From positions 1 through 64,000 of the forward strand of contig JAIPDO010000010.1 in the NCBI GenBank assembly GCA_021737645.1: DNA of 64,000 nucleotides, read 5' to 3'. Source of the DNA: Desulfarculaceae bacterium (GTDB taxonomy: Bacteria > Desulfobacterota > Desulfarculia > Desulfarculales > Desulfarculaceae). Each line of letters starts with the position of its first letter. Position 1 is the first letter of the stretch. Positions 5,553 to 16,998 of this stretch are shown piece by piece. A program made the position numbers and the translations under genes. Under the pieces are notes generated by a model. The model saw nothing but the letters and a program-made list of their open reading frames with translations. It searched no databases and had not been told where the DNA came from.

Positions 5553-6830
5553 TTACATGCAGCCCATGCCGCCGCCCATGCCCATCTTTTCGGCGCAACA
5601 GGCTTTGCCCTTGCGGATGCGAAAGGCCGAGAGGTCGTCGCCAGCGTAGATGGCCCTCAGCGCCTCCTCGATGAAACCGCTTACCTCCAAGGGCTCCACG
5701 CCGTAGCCGGCCAAAACCGCCCGAGGTGTCTCGCCGATGCCGCTGATCAGCACGTTGCGGCAGTCGCCCAGCGACTCGGCCAGTTTTTTCCAGCGCAGCT
5801 CGCCGCCGCCCGCCTCGGGCGCGGGGCGCACCTCCAATAGGCTGAAGCCGCCGGGGATGGGGCCCCAAATCTGGAACTCGGCGGCCTGGCCCAAGTGCAG
5901 GTTGACCAGGGTGCCTTCCCGGCTGGCCACGGCCACATAAGGCCGCACCACCTCTTTGGGAGGGAGAAGCTTGGTGCATGAAGACAGGCAGCCGCCCATT
6001 TCCTTGGAGCGGTCCTGGCCCAACAGGCCCACCGCGTCGGCCCGGCAGCGGGTGCAGTGGGACATCTGGCTGATGTGCCCAACGCAGTCGGCCCTTAGCT
6101 GCTGCATCAACTGGCGGCTGGGCTCGCCCAGCATCTCGAAGGGCGTGTTCGCCGTGGGGAACATGGGCATGAGGTTCATGAGGTCCGCGCCAAGTTCGGC
6201 GCCCCAGCGGGCCACCTCGGTCATGTGCTGGTCGTTGATGCTGGGGATTACGATGCTGTTTAGCTTCACGGTGATGCCCCGCTCTTTGAGCCCGGCCACC
6301 GCCTGGGCCTGGCGCTCCAGCAGCAGGCGGGCCGCCTCCTCGCCCCGGTAGGCCACCTTGCCGTCCTTGACCCATGAGTAGATCTTGGCTCCGATGGCCG
6401 GGTCCACCGCGTTGACGGTGATGGTCATGTGGGTGACCCCGGCGTCGGCCAGGGCGTCCAGATGCTCTGGCACGGCCAGGCCGTTGGAGGACAGGCACAA
6501 CAGGATGCCCGGAAAGCGCTTTTTGATCAGGTGGATGGTTTGCAGGGTCTTGGCCGCGTTGGCCATGGGGTCGCCGGGACCGGCGATACCGGCCACGCTG
6601 ATGCGCGGCTCGGCCTCCAGCACACGGTCGAAGTATTCCTGGGCCTGGTGGGGAGCCAGCACCGCGCTGGTCACGCCGGGGCGCGACTCGTTGACGCAGG
6701 AGTACTTGCGGTCGCAGTAGTTGCACTTGATATTGCAGGCCGGAGCCACTGGAAGATGGACCCGCCCGTGAGAGCCCTTGGCTCCCTTGTTGAAACAGGG
6801 ATGCTTTTCGCTAATACCCATGCTGTTCAT
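5553..6830 (-). CDS. nifB: Nitrogenase cofactor biosynthesis protein NifB
   Basis: NifB is the radical SAM enzyme that builds NifB-co, the [8Fe-9S-C] core of FeMo-co. The 425-residue protein shows the CxxxCxxC motif at Cys32/36/39 (CNIKCNYC), the ESRPG motif just after, the SAM-contacting GPGDP, and the HPC and CTRCRADA cysteines that bind the K-clusters. A NifX/NafY-like cofactor-binding domain fills roughly residues 300-405 (LHLGQAAEF...). It is the NifB-NifX fusion form. It is the last gene of the nif operon, separated from nifN by one of the two palindromic repeats. The AAGGGA ribosome site lies just outside that repeat. Confidence 0.97.
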   Translation of the reverse strand: MNSMGISEKHPCFNKGAKGSHGRVHLPVAPACNIKCNYCDRKYSCVNESRPGVTSAVLAPHQAQEYFDRVLEAEPRISVAGIAGPGDPMANAAKTLQTIHLIKKRFPGILLCLSSNGLAVPEHLDALADAGVTHMTITVNAVDPAIGAKIYSWVKDGKVAYRGEEAARLLLERQAQAVAGLKERGITVKLNSIVIPSINDQHMTEVARWGAELGADLMNLMPMFPTANTPFEMLGEPSRQLMQQLRADCVGHISQMSHCTRCRADAVGLLGQDRSKEMGGCLSSCTKLLPPKEVVRPYVAVASREGTLVNLHLGQAAEFQIWGPIPGGFSLLEVRPAPEAGGGELRWKKLAESLGDCRNVLISGIGETPRAVLAGYGVEPLEVSGFIEEALRAIYAGDDLSAFRIRKGKACCAEKMGMGGGMGCM

Positions 6831-6841
6831 GATATTTCCCT

Positions 6842-7102
6842 TAGCCCGGATATTCCATGAAGGCCGTGCGTCCGGCTGCGCCAGGCCCCGGCATACTGTG
6901 TTGCTGGCTGCGTTCGGGCCTCGACGTAGCGTTGGCTACGCCTACGGCCCTCTCTTGCCAGACGCCTTGTCTGCCGGCGCCTGGCTGTGCCGGCCCTTGA
7001 TGCAACGAGGGCCATGAAAACGTAGTTTCTGTTTTCATAGGGGCTCGATTGCTGTTGATGCGTTACTCATTGCCACACCGCCTTCATGAAATAATCGGGC
7101 TA
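6842..7102. mobile_element. MITE-like palindromic element, copy 1 (between nifN and nifB)
   Basis: A 261-bp element with 22-bp imperfect terminal inverted repeats (6842-6863 and 7081-7102, 3 mismatches). It begins and ends with TA, as expected of a TA target-site duplication. An internal arm pair (about 6872-6920 and 6945-6995) folds into a long hairpin around a CGTAGC/GCTACG core. The copy at 9855-10115 has the same length and ends, with paired changes in the stem. No transposase is encoded. The terminal TAG supplies the nifN stop codon. IS630/Tc1-type MITE is the likely class, from the TA ends. Confidence 0.8.
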
Positions 7103-8476
7103 TATGTATCCGTAGCCCACGGAGGAATCGTTCTGCTTCTTCTCGATGAGTGCGTTGACCACGCGGTCGTACAGTTCTTGGGCGCCCCGGTAGCCCAGGT
7201 GGTGCAAACGGGGTCCGCCGAAGCGGTCGTGGATGGGGAAGCCCACCCGCACCAGAGGGATGTCCAACTCCCGGGCGACGACGTAGCCCTTGGAGTTGCC
7301 CACCATGAAGTCCGGCTTCAGCTCCCGGCTAAGCTCGGCGATGCGGTAGAAGTCCACCCCCGCCTCGGCCATGACCGGCTCGCGCACCAGGCCCTCGGTG
7401 ACCTTTTCGATGTTTTCCCTGAATCCCGCGCTGCGCCCGCCGGAAACGCACAGCACCGGCTGCACCCCGACCTCGGCCAAAAAGGAGGCCAGGCCGATGA
7501 CCATATCCTGCTCGCCGTAGACCACCGCCCGCTGTCCCGAGAGATACTTGTGGCCGTCCACCATGGCGTCCAGCAGGCGGCCCCGCTCGTCGGCGTGGCG
7601 CGCCGGGACCGGGCGCTTGCTGACGGTCTCCAGGGCCTCGAACATGGCGTCGCTCCGGCGCAGGCCTATGGGCAGGCCCAGGCTGTGCAGGCACACCCCG
7701 CAGCGTTCTTGCAGGTCTCGGCCCGCCCCCTGGGAGTCCGGGGTCCATCCGAAGGACAGGGTCGCCGCCGCGCCGCCCATCTTTTTGATGTCGGCCAGGG
7801 GGGTGCCGCCGCTGGGCAGGATTTCATAGCTGGTGCTGGCCGGAGCGTCCAAAGGGCGCGAATAGTCGGGCAGCAGGGTGGCGCTCAGGCCGAAGTCCTT
7901 GGCCACCTCCAGCAAATAACGGATGTCCGCCGGACTGACAAAGCCGGGGAGGATGTTCACCCCGCCGTGGCGGGCCACCGGCTTGGCCAACTGCGCCACC
8001 GTGGCCTTCACCGCCGCGTGGAAGCCTTCCATGTGGGTGGCGGCGTAGGAGGGAGTGGATGCCTGGATAAGAGCGGGCATCTTGCCGTCCGCGCCCTCTA
8101 CCTTGGCCTCCTTCAAAAACTCCCTGACGATGGCGGGCACGTTGTCGCCGATGGTCTCGGTGAGGCAGGTGGTGGCGATGCCCACTGCCTTGGCCTGGTA
8201 CTTGTTGATCATGTTGACCAGGCCCTGCTTCAGGTTGGGCCCGCCGCCGAACACCGCGTCGTTTTCGCCAAGGGAGCTGGAGGCGATGTCCACCGGCTCG
8301 CGAAAGTGGCTGATGAGATAGCGGCGCATGTAGGTGGCGCAGCCCTGGGAGCCGTGCAAAAAGGGCACGCAGCCCTCGATACCCTTGAAGGCTATGCAGG
8401 CCCCCAGGGACATGCAGGCCTTGCAGGCGTTGGTGCTGGAGACGTAGTCGCGCTTTTCGGCCAGGTTGCTTTTCAT
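7100..8476 (-). CDS. nifN: Nitrogenase FeMo-cofactor scaffold subunit NifN
   Basis: NifN pairs with NifE to form the scaffold where NifB-co matures to FeMo-co. The 458-residue protein has the NifN/NifK-like start (NACKACMSLGACIAFKGI, GSQGCATYMRRYLISHFREP), which carries cluster-ligating cysteines, and the conserved TTCLTETIGDNVPAIVREF segment. It overlaps nifE by four bases (ATGA), so the two are coupled. The C-terminus ends in VGYGYI and its TAG stop is the outermost codon of the palindromic element, so the original C-terminus may have been altered by the insertion. There is no fusion to NifB. Confidence 0.95.
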   Translation of the reverse strand: MKSNLAEKRDYVSSTNACKACMSLGACIAFKGIEGCVPFLHGSQGCATYMRRYLISHFREPVDIASSSLGENDAVFGGGPNLKQGLVNMINKYQAKAVGIATTCLTETIGDNVPAIVREFLKEAKVEGADGKMPALIQASTPSYAATHMEGFHAAVKATVAQLAKPVARHGGVNILPGFVSPADIRYLLEVAKDFGLSATLLPDYSRPLDAPASTSYEILPSGGTPLADIKKMGGAAATLSFGWTPDSQGAGRDLQERCGVCLHSLGLPIGLRRSDAMFEALETVSKRPVPARHADERGRLLDAMVDGHKYLSGQRAVVYGEQDMVIGLASFLAEVGVQPVLCVSGGRSAGFRENIEKVTEGLVREPVMAEAGVDFYRIAELSRELKPDFMVGNSKGYVVARELDIPLVRVGFPIHDRFGGPRLHHLGYRGAQELYDRVVNALIEKKQNDSSVGYGYI

Positions 8477-9843
8477 GCCGCCGCCTCCTCCAGCTCAGGA
8501 AGGGCCCTGCGGGGGGTGAAGCGCCACACCGGGCTCATGGCCGTGGCGTGGATCTCCTCGGCGAAGTTGAGCATGCCCACGAAGCCTTCCAGGGCCAGCT
8601 TACGCTCGTGGTTGTGGTCGCAGAAGCCGATGCCCAGCTTGTAGGCGATGGGCCGCTCCTTGACTCCTCCCACGAAAACATCAACATCCTTTTCGATCAG
8701 GTAGGTCATCAGCTCAAGGGGGTTGGCGTCGTCCACGATCACCGTGCCCGGTTCGCAGATGGCGGCCAGCTCTTCGTAGTCCTCCTGGGTGCCGGTCTGG
8801 GAGCCGGCTAGCATTACCTTCATGCCCAGCAGCCTAAAGGCCTTGATGAGGCTGAAGGCCTTGAAGGCACCGCCCACGTACAGGGCGGCCCGCTTGCCTT
8901 CCAGGTCTTTGCGCAGCTCTTTGAGCCGGGGATAAATCTTGGCCAGCTCTTCGCGCACCAGTTCCTGGGCCTTTTCCATGGCGCTTTGGCTTTTAAAAAA
9001 GTCAGCCACGTCGTACAGGGCCTGGGCCATGTCGTCGGCCCCCAAATAGCTGACCCTGAGGAAGGGGGTGCCGTAAGTCTCCTGCATCATTTTGGCCAGC
9101 TCCATGGTGGAGCCGGAGCACTGCACCAGGTTCAGCGCCGCGCCGTGGGCTCGGCGCAGGTCGGCCACCCGGCCGTCGCCGGTGACGTTGGCCACCACGG
9201 TGATGCCCATGCGCTCCAGGTACTCACGGATGATCCATATCTCCCCGGCCAGGTTGAAGTCGCCCAACAGGTTCACCGACATGGGCGGGATGTCCCGGGT
9301 GTCGCCGGTGCCCACCAACTGAAACATGGCGTTGCAGGCCGCGTAGTACCCGGCGCGCTTGTTGCCCTTGAAGCCCTCGCTCATAACCGGGATCACCGGG
9401 ATGCCGTGGCGCTCGGAGGCCTTGTTGCACACCGCCTGCAGGTCGTCGCCGATCAGCCCCACGATGCAGGTGGAGTAGACGAACGCCGCCTTGGGATGAT
9501 GACGGGGGATCAGTTCATCTAGGGCGCGGGTGAGCTTGCCTTCGCCCCCGAAGATCACGTCGGTTTCGCCCAGGTCGGTGCTGAAGGAATAGCGGTGCAG
9601 CTCCGGGCCGGAAGACAAGGCCCCGCGTATGTCCCAGGTGTAAGAGGCGCAGCCGATGGGGCCGTGGATCAGGTGCAGGGCGTCGGCGATGGGATAGAGC
9701 ACCACCCGGGAGCCGCAGAACACGCAGGCCCGCTGGCTTACCGCTCCGGCCAGGCTTTGTTTGTCGCAGCTTATGCGGAAGGGCTTGTCGCCGCCCGTTT
9801 CAAAAAATTGGTCCTTGCGCTCTTCAAAAATCAGCCGTGACAT
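8473..9843 (-). CDS. nifE: Nitrogenase FeMo-cofactor scaffold subunit NifE
   Basis: NifE is the NifD-like half of the NifEN scaffold. The start at 9843 (MSRLIFEERK, 456 residues) is chosen because AGAGGAAG precedes it at a good distance. Visible family features are QRACVFCGSRVVLYPIADALHLIHGPIGCASYTWDIRG with the interface cluster cysteines, CIVGLIGDDLQAVC, and SEGFKGNKRAGYYAAC. The gene overlaps nifN downstream. Upstream it is separated from the GNAT gene only by the second palindromic element, and the ribosome site abuts that element's end. Confidence 0.96.
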   Translation of the reverse strand: MSRLIFEERKDQFFETGGDKPFRISCDKQSLAGAVSQRACVFCGSRVVLYPIADALHLIHGPIGCASYTWDIRGALSSGPELHRYSFSTDLGETDVIFGGEGKLTRALDELIPRHHPKAAFVYSTCIVGLIGDDLQAVCNKASERHGIPVIPVMSEGFKGNKRAGYYAACNAMFQLVGTGDTRDIPPMSVNLLGDFNLAGEIWIIREYLERMGITVVANVTGDGRVADLRRAHGAALNLVQCSGSTMELAKMMQETYGTPFLRVSYLGADDMAQALYDVADFFKSQSAMEKAQELVREELAKIYPRLKELRKDLEGKRAALYVGGAFKAFSLIKAFRLLGMKVMLAGSQTGTQEDYEELAAICEPGTVIVDDANPLELMTYLIEKDVDVFVGGVKERPIAYKLGIGFCDHNHERKLALEGFVGMLNFAEEIHATAMSPVWRFTPRRALPELEEAAA

Positions 9844-9854
9844 GATGCTTCCTC

Positions 9855-10115
9855 TAACCCGCATATTTCATGAGGTTCGTGTGTCCGGCTGCGCCAGCAA
9901 CCGGCATACGGCGTTGCCGGTTTCGCTCGGGCCTCGACGTAGCCTCTGCTACGCCTGCGGCCCTCACTTGCCGGACGCCTTGTCTGCCGTCGGCTGGCTG
10001 TGCCGGTGATGGGTGCAAATCGTCCATTGCTGTTGCAAACATTTTTTTCATAACCACCCCATGAATGCGGCTGCGTTGTTGGATGCCACCCAACCCTCAT
10101 GAAATATGCGGGTTA
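9855..10115. mobile_element. MITE-like palindromic element, copy 2 (between GNAT gene and nifE)
   Basis: A 261-bp element bounded by a perfect 21-bp inverted repeat (9855-9875 and 10095-10115), with TA at both extremities. The left 175 bp closely resemble copy 1 at 6842-7102; the right 85 bp have diverged. Stem positions that differ between copies change in pairs (CTGG/CCAG in copy 1 becomes CCGG/CCGG here), which supports selection or amplification as a folded structure. The terminal TAA serves as the stop codon of the GNAT gene. It carries no open reading frame of its own. Confidence 0.82.
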
Positions 10116-10583
10116 CTCCTGATGCTTGCGCATGCAGATCATCCGGGTGAGCTCATAGCCGACTCGCCGGTGAAAGGCCTGGCCCGTTTCATTGCCCTGG
10201 TCCACCAAGAGCTGCAAGCGAGAGGCCCCGCGCTCATTGGCCCAGGAGGCCACCGCCTCCATGAGCCGCCGCCCGATGCCCCGGCCGCGCCAGGCCGGCT
10301 CAACCACCAAGTCCTCGGCCCACAGGGAGGGCGCGCCCTCGGAGGTGGAGACGACCAGCTGGCCGGTGACCATGCCCACCACCCGGCCGCCCGCTTCGGC
10401 GGCCAAGATCAGGGCGCTGGGGCTCTTTAGCAGCAGAGACAGGCCGCGCTCTTGCCGGCGGGAGTCGATGCAAAAGTCTGCCTCGATGGCGAAGAGCATC
10501 TTGAGCAGCGCGACCATTTCCGCGATATCCCCCGGCCTGCCGGTCCGTATTTTCACCTCGCTGGGCATTTTGCCTGCATCCAC
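10113..10583 (-). CDS. GNAT family N-acetyltransferase
   Basis: The 156-residue protein has the GNAT acetyl-CoA site: LVVEPAWRGRGIGRRLMEAV (the R/Q-x-x-G-x-G/A motif A, about residues 93-112), preceded by the GMVTGQLVVS strand. It transfers an acetyl group to an amine of unknown identity, perhaps a protein N-terminus, lysine or small molecule. It sits inside the nif operon, four bases after the ferredoxin gene, so it is co-expressed with nitrogenase; a role there is inferred from position only. Its stop codon is provided by the adjacent palindromic repeat. Confidence 0.85.
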   Translation of the reverse strand: MDAGKMPSEVKIRTGRPGDIAEMVALLKMLFAIEADFCIDSRRQERGLSLLLKSPSALILAAEAGGRVVGMVTGQLVVSTSEGAPSLWAEDLVVEPAWRGRGIGRRLMEAVASWANERGASRLQLLVDQGNETGQAFHRRVGYELTRMICMRKHQE

Positions 10584-10586
10584 TTT

Positions 10587-10889
10587 TTAGGCGATCAAGT
10601 AGTCTTCAGGGGGCTCGCCGTCTTCCAGGCCGTCCAGGATGGCGTCGATGGCTGCTTCGCTGTCCACGCCCTTGAACCACCAGTTCTGGGGCTGCACCAC
10701 CATGGCCGGCCCGTTCTCGCATTGCTTGAGGCAGCCGGTGGCGGTTACCTGGCAGTCCAGGCCCCGGTCTAGAATCTCTTCTTCCAGATACTGCAAAAAC
10801 CCGTTGGTTTTTTTGTGGCAGATGCCCTTGGGGTCGCCGTTTACCCTGAAGCTCTGGCAAACCAAAATCTGGCTGGCGGGTATGCCCAT
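10587..10889 (-). CDS. Thioredoxin-like [2Fe-2S] ferredoxin of the nif operon
   Basis: The 100-residue protein has the four-cysteine pattern of thioredoxin-fold ferredoxins: Cys in the VCQSF segment, Cys in ICHKKTNG, then GCLKQC (C-x3-C) in the second half, followed by a WWFKGV motif. Such shethna-type ferredoxins carry one [2Fe-2S] cluster and donate electrons or protect nitrogenase. Its place between the NifB-like gene and the GNAT gene, all close together on one strand, points to electron delivery for nitrogenase or for cofactor assembly. Confidence 0.88.
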   Translation of the reverse strand: MGIPASQILVCQSFRVNGDPKGICHKKTNGFLQYLEEEILDRGLDCQVTATGCLKQCENGPAMVVQPQNWWFKGVDSEAAIDAILDGLEDGEPPEDYLIA

Positions 10890-10938: not shown

Positions 10939-12102
10939 TTACTTCTTGCCACCTTTTTTCTTGCCGCCGCCGTAGAGCACGTCCACCAGTCCCTCCACGT
11001 TTCCCTCTTGGGTGAGCACCGGCAGGCCCTCGCCGGCCAGGATGCGCTTGGGGCTGTCCCCGGCCGCCGAGGCCAACACGGCGAAACAGTCGCTCAGGGT
11101 CAAGGCCACCTGTTGCCAGCGGGATTCTCCGGCTCCCGGCTCCGGGGCGGGGCGGGCTTCCAAGAGCACCACCGGCCCGTCCTGGGCCCCGTAGATGAGG
11201 AACTGGTAGGCCTGGCCCAGGTGGGTGTCCACCTCGAAGCCGTCGGAGCTGCACACCGCCAGATAAGGCCGCTTGGGGGTGGGCTTGGGCAGCAGGGCCT
11301 GGTTGACCACCTCCTCGCTGAACTCCGTCTCGATCATCTCCTGACACATGGCCATGTCGATGAGGGTGGTGGGCAGGTGATCGTTGGCTTGGGCGGCCAG
11401 GGCGGCCAGCTCCTCGGGCGTGGTTTTGTCGCGGGGCTGGGGACAGTTTTCCCCCTTGGCCAGGTAGGGGAACAGCTTCATCTCGCTGACTCCCAGCTCG
11501 GCCGCCTTGGCCGCGATCTTTGGGATGTGTTCGGAGTTGATGCAGGGGTAGACCGTGGTCTTGGCCTGCACGTTCACCCCCGCCTTGACCAGGGCGGCGA
11601 TGCCCTCGGCCTGTTCGTCTATCAACAACCGGGCCGCCTCGTTCAGGGGCATAGTCTTGGTGCCGGGGCGTATCCAGGCATAGATGCGCTGGGCCACCTC
11701 GGGGTCCACCGCATCCAACAAAATGGATACATGGGCCAGGCTCAGGCGGGCCAGCTCGGCGGCATAGGCCCCGGCCCCGATGCCCAGGGTGGTCAGGCAC
11801 AGGCTCACTCCGGGGTAGCGCTCCCGCAGCAGGCCCAGGGTGAGCAGGGTGAGTTCCGGGGTGGCCAGAGGGTCGCCGGGGCCGTTGATGTTCACCACCC
11901 TTACGACCTCCCCCTGGTCGGCCAGATACTCCAGCCAATTCAGGGCCTGGTCTGGAGTTAAAGCCCTGGGCAAGGCCGTTTCCGGGCTGAACCTGCCTCG
12001 GGCCAGGGCCTTGGGCGCCACCGGGAGATGCACCCTGCCGGATGATTTCAGGTTGCCGGCGCAATATTTTTCGGCTGACTGGTGGTCCACTGGTTTCATC
12101 AT
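10939..12102 (-). CDS. NifB paralogue lacking the radical SAM cysteines, with NifX-like C-terminal domain
   Basis: The 387-residue protein aligns to NifB (5553-6830) along its length: GRVHLPVAP at the same residue numbers, GPGDP, VNVQAKTTVYPCINSEH against VKLNSIVIPSINDQH, and a C-terminal NifX/NafY-like domain (THLGQAYQFLIYG). At the positions of NifB Cys32/36/39 it has Ala32, Gly36 and Ser39. The ESRP motif and the CTRCRADA cysteines are also gone. It therefore cannot bind the catalytic 4Fe-4S cluster in the usual way. The frame is open, with a normal ribosome site (AAGGA), between nifK and the ferredoxin gene. It may be a carrier or chaperone for NifB-co or FeMo-co; this role is inferred. 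Confidence 0.85.
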   Translation of the reverse strand: MMKPVDHQSAEKYCAGNLKSSGRVHLPVAPKALARGRFSPETALPRALTPDQALNWLEYLADQGEVVRVVNINGPGDPLATPELTLLTLGLLRERYPGVSLCLTTLGIGAGAYAAELARLSLAHVSILLDAVDPEVAQRIYAWIRPGTKTMPLNEAARLLIDEQAEGIAALVKAGVNVQAKTTVYPCINSEHIPKIAAKAAELGVSEMKLFPYLAKGENCPQPRDKTTPEELAALAAQANDHLPTTLIDMAMCQEMIETEFSEEVVNQALLPKPTPKRPYLAVCSSDGFEVDTHLGQAYQFLIYGAQDGPVVLLEARPAPEPGAGESRWQQVALTLSDCFAVLASAAGDSPKRILAGEGLPVLTQEGNVEGLVDVLYGGGKKKGGKK

Positions 12103-12137: not shown

Positions 12138-13517
12138 CTACATCACCAGTTCGAAGCTCTGTTCCGGGTCGTCGCGATCCTTGCGGTCCAACAGGGCCGA
12201 AAGGGTTTTTTCCAATAGCCTCAGAGCGCCCTTGTACCCCACGGTGGGGAAGTACTGGTGCCCCACCCGGTCCAGGATGGGGAAGCCCCAGCGCACCATG
12301 GGGATGTCCTCATCGCGGGAGATGTACTTGAGGTAGGTGTTGCCCATCAAGAGGTCCACCGGCTCGTTTTTTATCCACTGATGCAGCAGGAACATGTCCG
12401 CTTGCTGGTCCGCCTTGACGTTGACTTCAAAGGGCAGGTCGGCGGTGAGTTCCTTGACCCTGGCCACGAAGGCCTTGCCCGGCGTGCCGGTGACCACATG
12501 CACGGGCCACATGTCGATGGACACCAAGAACTCCACCATGGCGATGACCTGGTCCGGGTCCCCGGCAAGGGCCACCTTCTTTTGGAAGAAGTACTGGTGC
12601 ATGTCGCTGATCATGTCCACCAGTTGGCCGCGCTCGTGGGTCACCTCTTCGGGCACACTGACCCCGGCGATGATGCGCAGGGCATCCACGAAGCGGTCGG
12701 TGGCTTTGAGGCCGATGGGGATGTCCAGCACCCGGCAGGGCACCTTGTTGTTGGTGTCCAGGAAGCGGGCCGCGTCGGCGCTGCACCACTCACCCAGGGC
12801 CAGGGTGCCGATGGAGTCGCCGGCCGAGCGCAACTGGGCGATGGTCACCCCGCCCTCGGGGAACATCTTGTATTCGCCGGACAGGGGGCCGTTAAGGATG
12901 CCCGAGGTGTCGGGGAACAGGATGATTTCCACCCCGATGAGCGCGGCCAGGCGCTTGATCTCCTCCATGTCGGCGGGCTCCACCCAGCCGGGGATGATGT
13001 TCACCTTGCCGTTTTTGCGGCCCGTGGACTCGGCCACCCGGGCCATGCCCTTTACCATGTTGGAAAAGCCGGTGACGTGGCTGCCCACGTAGCTGGGCGT
13101 GTTGGCGTAGACCACGTGCTTGCCCTTGGGAATCTTGCCGTCCTTGGTGGCCTTGTCGATGATCTGGGGCAGGTCGTCTCCAATGGTCTCGGACAAACAG
13201 GTGGTGTGCACCGCCACCACCTCGGGCTCGTACACGGTGAAGATGTTGTCGATGGCCTGGAGCAGGTTGGCCTGGCCTCCGAACACCGAGGCGCCCTCGG
13301 TGAAGGAGCTGGTGCCCGCGCTGATGGGCTCCTTGTAGTGCCGGGTCAGGGCGCTGCGGTGGTAGGCGCAGCAGCCCTGGGAGCCGTGGCTGTGGGGCAT
13401 GCAGCCGTGCATGCCCAAGGCCGCGTACATGGCCCCGATGGGCTGACAGGTCTTGGCCGGGTTTATGGTCAGGGCGTGGCGCTCGCTGACCTCTTTTGGC
13501 GTATGTCTCAGTAGCAT
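12138..13517 (-). CDS. nifK: Nitrogenase MoFe protein beta chain NifK
   Basis: NifK forms the alpha2-beta2 dinitrogenase with NifD and ligates half of the P-cluster. The 459-residue protein shows the P-cluster cysteine regions (KTCQPIGAMYAALGMHGCMPHSHGSQGCCAYHR, split over residues 23-55) and the TTCLSETIGDDLPQII segment. It is about 60 residues shorter than the Azotobacter chain, because it lacks the N-terminal extension, as in clostridial and other anaerobe enzymes. It follows nifD by 25 bp, with an AAGGAC ribosome site. Confidence 0.97.
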   Translation of the reverse strand: MLLRHTPKEVSERHALTINPAKTCQPIGAMYAALGMHGCMPHSHGSQGCCAYHRSALTRHYKEPISAGTSSFTEGASVFGGQANLLQAIDNIFTVYEPEVVAVHTTCLSETIGDDLPQIIDKATKDGKIPKGKHVVYANTPSYVGSHVTGFSNMVKGMARVAESTGRKNGKVNIIPGWVEPADMEEIKRLAALIGVEIILFPDTSGILNGPLSGEYKMFPEGGVTIAQLRSAGDSIGTLALGEWCSADAARFLDTNNKVPCRVLDIPIGLKATDRFVDALRIIAGVSVPEEVTHERGQLVDMISDMHQYFFQKKVALAGDPDQVIAMVEFLVSIDMWPVHVVTGTPGKAFVARVKELTADLPFEVNVKADQQADMFLLHQWIKNEPVDLLMGNTYLKYISRDEDIPMVRWGFPILDRVGHQYFPTVGYKGALRLLEKTLSALLDRKDRDDPEQSFELVM

Positions 13518-13542: not shown

Positions 13543-15183
13543 TTATTCCCAAACGTAGGTGGCCGAGAGCTCGGGGTTCTCCTGCCAGGGGGCCTTGAGA
13601 TATCCCCACACCTTGCTGTTCACCAGGCGGTCGATCTCGTTGTAGAAGTTCACCGCACCCCGGAAGCCGGCATAGGGGCCGCCGGAGTCGTAGCTGTGCA
13701 GCTGCTTCATGGGGATGCCCAGCTTCTGGATGGAGAACTTCTCCTTGATGCCCGCGCAGAAGATGTCGGGCTTCATGAGTTCCACCATCTTTTCGGCCTC
13801 GTACTGGTTGAGGTCGTCGATGACCACGGTGTTGTTTTCCATGTCCGGGATCATGCCCTCGTACTGCTTGAAGTCCAGGCCCGATGCCTGGAGCGCCTCC
13901 ATGTCCGCTTCGCTTTTGCGCGGGTTGTAGCGGGTTTCGTCGGCGCTGACCTGGATCTCTTCGATGTTGCGCGAGTCGGCGTCCACCTTGAGGCCCGGCA
14001 GCACGTGGCGCCCCTCGTAGTCGTCGCGGTGGGCGAACTCGTATCCCGCGCTGATGGTCTTCATGCCCAGCTCCTTGAAAAGCTCCTGATAGTGGTGGGC
14101 CCGGGAGCCGCCCACGAACAGCATGGCGGTCTTGCCCTCGGTGCGCGGCCGGACATCCTTGGCCACCTCGGCGACTGCGGGCATCTCCTCGGCGACGACC
14201 GCTTCCACCCGTTCGGTGAGTACGGGGTCGACGAAGTACTTGGCGACCTTGCGCAAGGACTTGGCCGTGGCCTCGGCCCCGATGAAGTTGATCTTCACCC
14301 AGGGGATGCCGTACTTGACCTCCAGCATGTCGGCCACGTAGTTGATGGAGCGATGGCACATCACCGCGTTGAGATCGGCGGTGTGGGCGCTGGCGAACTG
14401 GTCGTAGTTGGAGTTGCCGCTGAAGGTGGCGATGTTGGTGATGCCGCACTTTTTGAGGATCCGGTCGATCTCGAACCCGTCGCCGCCGATGTTGTACTCA
14501 CCCAGCAGGTTGATCTTGTACTCGCCGGGCTTGACCTCGTCGTTTAGGCCCACCAGGTGACGGAACACCTGGTTGTTGGCGATGTGGTGACCGGCCGACT
14601 GGGACACGCCCTTGTATCCTTCGCAGCTAAAGGCGAATACGTTGCAGTCCCCCAGCTTGTTCCTCATCTTGGTGGCCACGGCGTGGATGTCGTCGCCGAT
14701 GAGCCCCACCGGGCAGGTGGCGAAAATGGCGATGCCCTTGGGGTGGAAAATGTCGTAGGCCTCCTGGATGGCCGCTTCCAGTTTTTTTTCGCCGCCGAAG
14801 ATGATGTCCTTGTCCTGCATGTCCGTGCTGAAGCAGTAGGTCATGTAGTTCTCGGCGTCCGGGGCGGTGGCGTCGGTCTGGTTGCGGCGGGTCAGCCAGG
14901 AGTAGAAGCCGCAGCCGATGGGGCCGTGGGTGATGTTTACGATGTCGCGAGTGGGCCCCATGATCACGCCCTTGCAGCCCGCGTAGGTGCAGCCGCGCAT
15001 GGTGATGATGCCGGGGATGGTGCGCACGTTGGCGGTTATCTCGGGAGTCTCGTTTTCCAGGGCCTCGTTGATCAATATCTGCTTGGCGCGCTTGCGGGCC
15101 ACCTTGGGGGGATACTTCCCCAGTATCTGTTCCTTAATGACCGCCGGGTCCGCCGGCGCCTTGTTGTCATGGGCTGAAATCAT
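13543..15183 (-). CDS. nifD: Nitrogenase MoFe protein alpha chain NifD
   Basis: NifD carries the FeMo-co active site. The 546-residue protein has P-cluster cysteines (GCTYAGCKG, HGPIGCGFYSW), the catalytic GVSQSAGHH segment (Gln and His next to FeMo-co), the FeMo-co ligating Cys in VMCHRSINYV and the ligating His in KQLHSYDSGGPYAG. An extra stretch of about 50 residues (around ADADSRNIEEIQVSADETRY) makes it longer than the Azotobacter chain, as in the clostridial/anaerobe group II enzymes. The Mo-type active-site signature argues against VnfD or AnfD. Confidence 0.97.
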   Translation of the reverse strand: MISAHDNKAPADPAVIKEQILGKYPPKVARKRAKQILINEALENETPEITANVRTIPGIITMRGCTYAGCKGVIMGPTRDIVNITHGPIGCGFYSWLTRRNQTDATAPDAENYMTYCFSTDMQDKDIIFGGEKKLEAAIQEAYDIFHPKGIAIFATCPVGLIGDDIHAVATKMRNKLGDCNVFAFSCEGYKGVSQSAGHHIANNQVFRHLVGLNDEVKPGEYKINLLGEYNIGGDGFEIDRILKKCGITNIATFSGNSNYDQFASAHTADLNAVMCHRSINYVADMLEVKYGIPWVKINFIGAEATAKSLRKVAKYFVDPVLTERVEAVVAEEMPAVAEVAKDVRPRTEGKTAMLFVGGSRAHHYQELFKELGMKTISAGYEFAHRDDYEGRHVLPGLKVDADSRNIEEIQVSADETRYNPRKSEADMEALQASGLDFKQYEGMIPDMENNTVVIDDLNQYEAEKMVELMKPDIFCAGIKEKFSIQKLGIPMKQLHSYDSGGPYAGFRGAVNFYNEIDRLVNSKVWGYLKAPWQENPELSATYVWE

Positions 15184-15204: not shown

Positions 15205-15579
15205 CTAGACGATTGCCTTGGGGCCGATTTCTCCGGTGCGCACTCGGGCGGCGTCGCTGATCGGCAGGACGAAAATCTTGCCGTCGCCGGGCTTGCCGGT
15301 CTGGTTGGTTTCGACCAGGGTCTTTATCACCGGCTCCACGTTGTGGTCGGAAACCACCATGGTCAGCATGCGCTTGGAGTACAGCTTGCCCTTCTCGCCC
15401 AGCAGGGCGATGGCCTCCTCGTAGCCCTGGCTGGCCCCGGCCAGGATCTTCACATCCACCAGGCCCCGTCCCCGCCCCTGACACTCATGGGCGAACATGG
15501 AGTCGATGCCGATCTTGGTCAGGGCCTGCTTGGTCTGGTTCATGGTGTTCATGCGCACCACGGCGATTATCTCTTTCAT
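15205..15579 (-). CDS. nifI2: Nitrogenase-associated PII protein NifI2
   Basis: The 124-residue GlnB-like protein has a PII ferredoxin-like core (MKEIIAVVRMNTMNQTKQAL, DGKIFVLPISDAARVRTGE). A divergent T-loop (ECQGRGRGLVDVKILAGASQGYEEA) places it with NifI2 rather than GlnB/GlnK. NifI1-NifI2 complexes bind dinitrogenase directly and switch it off when nitrogen is plentiful, with relief by 2-oxoglutarate. It overlaps nifI1 by four bases and lies between nifH and nifD, the typical anaerobe/methanogen order. Confidence 0.93.
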   Translation of the reverse strand: MKEIIAVVRMNTMNQTKQALTKIGIDSMFAHECQGRGRGLVDVKILAGASQGYEEAIALLGEKGKLYSKRMLTMVVSDHNVEPVIKTLVETNQTGKPGDGKIFVLPISDAARVRTGEIGPKAIV

Positions 15580-15947
15580 GCCGTGGCCTCGGCTTCCTCC
15601 ACCGGCGCGGTGTCGCAGACACCGGAGCTGATGGTGTAGACGTCATCCACCGGGCTGACGAAGATCTTGCCGTCGCCGAAGGCTCCCTTGCCCTTGGTGC
15701 GGGCCGCCTCCATGATGGTCTTGATCGCGAACTCCACGTCCTCGTCCCTGATCACGCTCATGAGCAAGGTCTTGGGGATTTCGTCGTAAGTGACCTGGCC
15801 GATCTTGATGCCGCGCTGCTTGCCGCGGCCCGCCACCGAGTACTTGGTGACCGCGGGGAAGCCCGCGTCCATCAGGGCCTTGAGGACGTCATCGGCTTTC
15901 TCGGGCCTCACGATTGCTCTCACCATCATCATCATGTGGTTATCCAT
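15576..15947 (-). CDS. nifI1: Nitrogenase-associated PII protein NifI1
   Basis: The 123-residue GlnB-like protein has VRAIVRPEKADDVLKALMDAG at the start and the PII signature segment GDGKIFVSPVDDVYTI near the end. Its shortened T-loop (GRGKQRGIKIGQVTYDEIPKT) is typical of NifI1. It partners NifI2 in the post-translational control of dinitrogenase. Several Met codons are clustered at the start, so the exact start (15947 or the ATG at 15935) is uncertain. It lies 20 bp after nifH. Confidence 0.92.
   Translation of the reverse strand: MDNHMMMMVRAIVRPEKADDVLKALMDAGFPAVTKYSVAGRGKQRGIKIGQVTYDEIPKTLLMSVIRDEDVEFAIKTIMEAARTKGKGAFGDGKIFVSPVDDVYTISSGVCDTAPVEEAEATA

Positions 15948-15966: not shown

Positions 15967-16998
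<1,032 letters not shown>

Follow-up and report, generated by a model that had tools for sequence, protein, structure and literature searches.

A conserved NifB relative that lacks the radical-SAM cysteines is found in the nif operons of many sulfate reducers and evolves under purifying selection, looser than that on nifDK. Judging from its sequence, we favour with moderate confidence the reading that this paralogue is a nitrogenase cofactor chaperone of the NafY/NifX type, probably derived from a dead NifB, and not an enzyme. It is the loss of the SAM cysteines, while the cofactor-ligand histidine of the NifX type was kept, that suggests a cofactor carrier.

The paralogue in the nif operon

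The window (the whole stretch of 64 000 nucleotides analysed here, from a Desulfarculaceae genome) contains a minus-strand run of genes in the order nifH-nifI1-nifI2-nifD-nifK-[cysteine-less NifB paralogue]-ferredoxin-GNAT-nifE-nifN-nifB. The first-pass annotation had described an intact frame for the paralogue and a place alongside nifHDK and nifENB; both descriptions stand, as the ORF (10939..12102, minus strand) encodes 387 amino acids from an ATG and lies within the same-strand run. Immediately upstream, at a distance of 35 bp, is nifK (12138..13517), preceded by nifD (13543..15183), the P-II type genes nifI2 and nifI1 (15205..15947, named by a look at the sequence and operon order) and nifH (15967..16938, where the nifH match starts at residue 50 of the listed ORF); nifK, nifD and nifH score over the cut-offs of TIGR01286, TIGR01282 and TIGR01287, respectively. 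Downstream lie a [2Fe-2S] ferredoxin gene (10587..10889; NF041612 54.1 bits, below the cut-off of 150), whose product we take to have a thioredoxin-like fold, a GNAT acetyltransferase gene (10113..10583; PF00583), nifE (8473..9864; TIGR01283 over cut-off), nifN (7100..8476) and a true nifB with CX3CX2C (5553..6830; TIGR01290 396.9 bits, over cut-off), all on the minus strand. The nifN gene is named by position, its ORF scoring best with the nifK profile (300 bits) and then with the nifN profile (277 bits), both below the cut-offs.

One shared transcript for the whole run is plausible, though a 251-bp repeat that is multi-copy in the genome splits GNAT from nifE (window 9866–10116) and a partial second copy splits nifN from nifB (window 6853–6993). 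The element is MITE- or REP-like, with an inverted repeat at its ends, and the genome contains 44 matches to it when the element is counted too.

Loci from other species were collected by searching genomes of 84 980 species, one for each, for two peptide patterns, which gave 115 stretches, 84 relatives and finally 80 loci that were kept. A nifK gene lies within 500 bp upstream of the paralogue in 70 of the 77 testable loci, the other three beginning at a contig end. On the downstream side, a ferredoxin gene follows within 500 bp in 75 of the 80, with three more running off the contig. Of the seven loci without an adjacent nifK (L063, L065, L067, L079, L084, L086 and L089), four are from named cable bacteria and three from Desulfobulbaceae MAGs. 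Each of the seven has the ferredoxin gene directly downstream and a GNAT gene close to the ferredoxin. Six have no nifH, nifD or nifK within the fetched stretch; L067 has all three some kilobases upstream, past opposite-strand genes, and nifD was found in the genomes of all seven. More generally, a GNAT acetyltransferase gene is seen near the paralogue and ferredoxin in many loci. Two of the cable bacteria (L065 and L086) also have, from a look at the sequence only, an ORF for an amtB-like ammonium transporter a few kilobases from the paralogue.

Motifs lost and kept

The protein aligns end to end with the operon's true NifB (34% identity over 379 columns) and matches both PF04055 and PF02579 above the Pfam cut-offs, the latter with 36.2 bits against a gathering score of 26.3, so that the NifX-like domain is kept, as first noted. 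It does not pass the TIGR01290 nifB equivalog cut-off (144.4 bits versus 343.65). About residues 20–250 (11353..12045, minus strand, as for all parts of this protein) form a degenerate radical-SAM barrel, and the N-terminal part of the protein is modelled as a NifB barrel. The former CX3CX2C loop, residues 30–39 (11986..12015), reads PKALARGRFS; a predicted NifX/NafY-type cofactor-binding domain covers about residues 272–378 (10969..11289) and includes His294 (11221..11223), the cofactor ligand predicted from alignment and invariance. The protein ends in a basic tail, GGKKKGGKK (10942..10968).

Conservation was assessed over 189 family rows, in which the rows from loci had been picked for the absence of C...C..C and 120 database matches were unfiltered; four pairs of rows share a core, giving 185 distinct rows, and P0001–P0010 were excluded. 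None of the 189 rows has a cysteine at any of the three SAM-cluster positions, whereas 39 of 39 true NifBs have all three. The family count is partly circular, since the locus rows were selected for lacking the motif, but CX3CX2C is also absent from all of the best 120 of 986 database relatives, which were unfiltered for it. The window protein has Ala32, Gly36 and Ser39 at these positions, exactly as the first-pass annotation reported. Many relatives have a PRANARIRF-like sequence in the former loop, with Arg or Lys at residue 35 in 182 and at residue 37 in 181 of the 189 rows.

Further NifB motifs (ExRP, TxTxN and Cx2CRxDAxG, as listed in an excerpt of PMC5715403, and AGPG) have fared differently. 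The ExRP loop, which had been noted as lost in its ESRP form, is missing from 185 of 189 rows, and the K1 cysteine inside it is gone too. TxTxN is mostly TxLxD in the family, the N of SSNG is mostly L and Cx2CRxDAxG is not conserved. The GPGDP reported earlier is indeed kept in the window protein, which reads NGPGDP with the A of AGPG changed; of the 189 rows, 187 retain the first G of this loop, 188 the P and all 189 the second G. The persistence of the loop could point to a residual reaction, such as one that depends on SAM or SAH without radical chemistry; with the SAM cluster ligands and the ExRP loop missing and both TxTxN and SSNG altered, we consider this extremely unlikely. Among other sites, Trp143, Asp338 and Cys339 are invariant (189 of 189 each) and Arg145 and Pro146 nearly so (188 each); Trp143, Asp338 and Cys339 are common to most NifBs, but Pro146 is not. 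The basic tail, taken as a net charge of at least +3 over the last 12 residues, is present in 185 of 189 family rows versus 0 of 36 true NifBs.

It had also been stated that the K-cluster cysteines are gone, which is too strong. The K1 ligands of MaNifB are Cys30, Cys63, Cys129 and His43 (excerpt of PMC7145814). The loop with the Cys63 equivalent is indeed lost, but on the same published numbering window His25 aligns with His43 and Cys102 with Cys129, while Cys14 is two columns off the position of Cys30. Equivalents of Cys30, His43 and Cys129 are kept in 107, 122 and 123 of the 189 rows, respectively. The barrel might accordingly hold a [4Fe-4S] precursor or the L-cluster at a remnant K1 site (Cys14/His25/Cys102), and a nearby N-terminal cysteine occurs together with the His43 and Cys129 equivalents in 111 of 189 rows. 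We think this improbable as the family's role: the loop for the third K1 cysteine is missing in 185 of 189 rows, the N-terminus is poor in the structure model, and in six Desulfobulbales members the Cys129 equivalent is kept in none and the His43 equivalent in one, so that a K1 remnant cannot be the shared core function.

Spread, selection and co-occurrence

By record name, the relatives come from Desulfobulbia, Desulfovibrionia, Desulfarculia and a few Desulfobacteria, the rest having unresolved MAG names; labels of 'Myxococcota' and 'Pseudomonadota' derive from MAG titles of the type 'Deltaproteobacteria bacterium' and 'Proteobacteria bacterium' and were set aside. This spread rules out a lineage-specific oddity. 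In the databases, the names given to relatives include 'nitrogen fixation protein NifB', 'radical SAM protein' and, closer to the mark, 'NifB/NifX family molybdenum-iron cluster-binding protein'. Surveys of nifB copy number may be misled by paralogues annotated in this way.

A tree of 90 proteins (43 family members and 47 NifBs; quick method) recovers the family as one clade (SH-aLRT 100), whose stem has a length of 1.19 changes per column. The clade lies beside NifBs of the same phylum, its exact sister being moderately supported (89). Across the 80 loci, 75 copies are full length, four are cut by contig ends and one (L092) is interrupted, split between two frames. Frameshifts or neutral dN/dS in relatives had been named beforehand as signs against a functional protein; 75 of 76 complete copies are intact and all 17 pairs have a dN/dS below 1 (range 0.105–0.58), which rules out a pseudogene or an annotation artefact. 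The NG86 median for the paralogue is 0.187 (17 pairs), compared with 0.16 for nifB (6 pairs), 0.099 for nifE (7), 0.056 for nifD (14), 0.057 for nifK (17), 0.065 for the ferredoxin (17) and 0.207 for GNAT (14).

Of 20 genomes from the window's family, a NifB-like match was found in 13, six of which carry the paralogue. A survey of the phylum found a NifB-like match in 114 of 395 genomes, at least 16 of which carry the paralogue; this number is a minimum because only ambiguous matches were read. The first-pass annotation had asked whether such proteins always co-occur with a true nifB, and all 16 surveyed carriers do have a second, NifB-type match. It spans most of the profile in 14 of them and is short in G308 and G386. 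This second match was read for the SAM cysteine motif in 11 of the 16, and the motif was seen in G000, G001, G002, G004, G008, G009, G058, G105, G273, G375 and, in part, G308.

The paralogue is not universally required, being missing from many NifB-bearing genomes. In two members of the window's family (G012 and G013) the nif operon was read and the paralogue is absent. In Nitratidesulfovibrio vulgaris DP4 the search covered the nif plasmid, which is likewise without it, and a search there for a relic between nifK and ferredoxin gave no convincing match (best E 0.041). That plasmid (L127) carries a nif operon of the same order, with an annotated drt2 antiviral reverse transcriptase gene just after nifB. 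The related D. vulgaris Hildenborough grows on N2, and those nif cluster genes for which there are data matter for that growth (excerpt of PMC10102598). The patchy distribution, together with a faster rate of evolution than nifK or nifE (median dN/dS as given above), would fit a redundant duplicate on its way out that survives in the operon by chance. This we regard as very unlikely for a gene that is interrupted in just one of 76 complete copies, has invariant sites over 189 rows, forms a single clade across several classes and stays with the ferredoxin gene in the seven loci without an adjacent nifK.

A NifX match over the curated cut-off was found in none of the 16 carriers, versus 13 of 64 NifB genomes without the paralogue (raw counts, 80 of the 114 genomes being scanned). 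Small NifX-like ORFs of about 110 amino acids, under the nifX cut-off, were seen beside the true nifB in paralogue carriers (G160:C1:2402-2674, G312:C75:862-1128 and L031:19811-20137). The window's genome (G000) has three further PF02579 domains away from nif, on contigs C70 and C104 (L102–L104), two of them about 2 kb apart on one contig; any of the three might be the cofactor carrier instead.

Candidate cofactor binding, partners and function

PF02579 matches all 30 members scanned (E ≤ 0.001), and His294 is invariant, with a histidine of the cofactor-ligand type in an H-F/L-G motif in 189 of 189 rows. A profile of the NifX-like domain built from 24 sequences matched core-NafY (1p90, E 9.9e-5) and NifX (9ian, E 0.0081). 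In the profile alignment, the HFG histidine of 1p90 and residue 35 of NifX both line up with His294. As the whole-protein structure comparison (VIA) barely covered this domain, it was modelled and searched alone; with this model Foldseek ranked 9ian first and 1p90 second. H35 of NifX is a ligand of NifB-co in the NifEN–NifX structure, and NifY and NafX are without that histidine (excerpt of PMC13128457); H121 of NafY, in a His-Phe-Gly motif, is the key ligand of FeMo-co (excerpt of PMC8496260). The same histidine occurs in the NifX domain of NifB itself, in 35 of 39 true NifB rows, and was thus inherited, not newly acquired. The paralogue has no TIGR02663 nifX match at E ≤ 0.001 (equivalog cut-off 112 bits); the sole match to this model in the window's genome is the domain of the true NifB. 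Of the roles first suggested for the protein, that of a FeMo-co or NifB-co carrier is supported by the invariant histidine and by the domain's matches to NifX and core-NafY in sequence and fold.

Possible partners were explored by partial correlations of protein distances, an exploratory measure in which the pairs are not independent. L101 and L092 were dropped, and a first run including both gave the same ranking. Known partners were recovered with 25 loci (nifD–nifK 0.48, nifE–nifN 0.58). The whole paralogue gave 0.37 with nifK, 0.40 with nifN and 0.05 (p 0.28) with nifB in 25 loci, and in 55 loci 0.35 (p 0.0005) with nifK and, weakly, 0.15 (p 0.012) with nifI1. For the barrel, the values were 0.39–0.40 with NifK (p 0.002; 25 loci) and 0.34 (p 0.002) in 34 other loci, 0.26–0.33 with NifN (p 0.001–0.002), 0.20 with NifB (p 0.007) and 0.17 with nifI1 (p 0.018; 34 loci), and no co-variation with ferredoxin or NifH was found. 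The NifX domain of the paralogue gave 0.46 with nifD and 0.32 with nifE (both p 0.001), the link with NifD losing significance in the 34 loci outside the first set (0.13, p 0.14). Rank versions weaken most values, to 0.22 (p 0.018; 25 loci) and 0.15 (p 0.047; 55 loci) for barrel–NifK. In a control, links were also seen between NifB's own barrel and both nifD and nifE, and between the NifX domain of NifB and nifN, so that links of this kind are not special to the paralogue. Co-variation thus favours NifK and NifN over NifB as partners in a way that is suggestive only.

The location of the gene beside nifK and the co-variation with NifK lend support to a second of the suggested roles, stabilisation of NifDK. 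Taken alone, they would also fit a prop like NifY, which binds apo-NifDK and holds the cofactor funnel open or capped while carrying no cofactor: nifK immediately precedes the gene in 70 of 77 loci, it is the barrel that co-varies with NifK, and binding of NifY and NafY to the apo-MoFe protein leaves α-Cys275 protected (excerpt of PMC6016461). Since NifY is without the cofactor histidine (excerpt of PMC13128457), which is invariant here, we consider such a prop unlikely. The third suggested role, stabilising NifB, is less favoured. A heteromer in which the paralogue steadies true NifB or receives NifB-co from it would suit two proteins predicted to share a barrel fold, and every surveyed carrier has a NifB-type match; the barrel also co-varies with NifB, most with its NifX domain (0.26, p 0.002). 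However, the whole protein does not track NifB and shows 0.00 with NifB's barrel, and the gene adjoins nifK, not nifB, so that we rate a NifB partner as quite unlikely.

For the chaperone of the NafY/NifX type that we prefer, we infer cofactor binding, docking and a direction of transfer as follows. FeMo-co (or NifB-co) would be bound through His294 of the NifX-like domain, and the dead barrel would stand in for NafY's N-terminal domain by docking on apo-NifDK and, probably, NifEN. Docking would be via the beta-type subunits, so that the cofactor could pass to the alpha subunit, and the paralogue would do the job of NafY/NifX-type proteins. Possibly, though we put this forward only tentatively, this is a chaperone class that arose once by the gutting of NifB, in which the barrel docks on the beta-type subunits of NifEN and NifDK, the NifX domain ferries the finished cofactor between them and a single protein replaces NifX and NafY in Desulfobacterota. 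Against the chaperone reading stand the many NifB-bearing genomes without the paralogue, the three PF02579 domains elsewhere in the window's genome, the small NifX-like ORFs of two carriers (G160 and G312) and the basic tail of the paralogue, whereas the C-terminal tail of NifX binds a basic patch on NifE.

Comparison with known systems

No description of a cysteine-less NifB beside nifK was found in the full-text literature searched, subscription papers and supplements being outside its scope. A study of NifB diversity dropped putative NifBs without the motifs, going from 390 to 289 (excerpt of PMC5715403). According to a 2026 paper, how finished FeMo-co gets from NifEN to apo-NifDK has yet to be resolved (excerpt of PMC13128457). 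If the chaperone reading is correct, the protein, with its two domains and large docking barrel, would offer a new handle for trapping this step and could be considered as a component of engineered nitrogenase pathways.

The paralogue resembles NifB in its two-domain layout, barrel fold, GPGDP and NifX-like C-terminal domain with the histidine; unlike NifB, it is without CX3CX2C, ExRP, TxTxN and Cx2CRxDAxG, scores below the TIGR01290 cut-off and falls in a separate clade. The extra NifBs of Paenibacillus, NifB3 and NifB4, are comparable as additional copies that do not support Mo-nitrogenase, but they keep the CX3CX2C and ExRP motifs, neither of which the paralogue has; NifB3 and NifB4 show no induction in P. 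sabinae when N2 is fixed and could be pseudogenes according to the authors (excerpt of PMC8287671).

NafY consists of an N-terminal domain that binds apo-NifDK and a core that binds FeMo-co (excerpt of PMC8496260). The paralogue likewise has an N-terminal domain followed by a PF02579 core with the H(F/L)G histidine, for which the A. vinelandii structure 1p90 is the best match by sequence. The two N-terminal domains differ, that of NafY being all-helical (same excerpt) and that of the paralogue a dead radical-SAM barrel, as likened from sequence and model. The tail of A. vinelandii NifX binds a basic patch on NifE (excerpt of PMC13128457), whereas that of the paralogue is itself basic. NifX (9ian) is nevertheless the top fold match of the C-terminal domain, with His294 on residue 35; the domain of the paralogue is, by contrast, fused to a barrel and encoded by a gene next to nifK. 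In A. vinelandii, nifY follows nifHDK, a position like that of the paralogue gene. NifY binds the apo-MoFe protein (excerpt of PMC6016461), but it is without the cofactor histidine (excerpt of PMC13128457) that is invariant in the paralogue.
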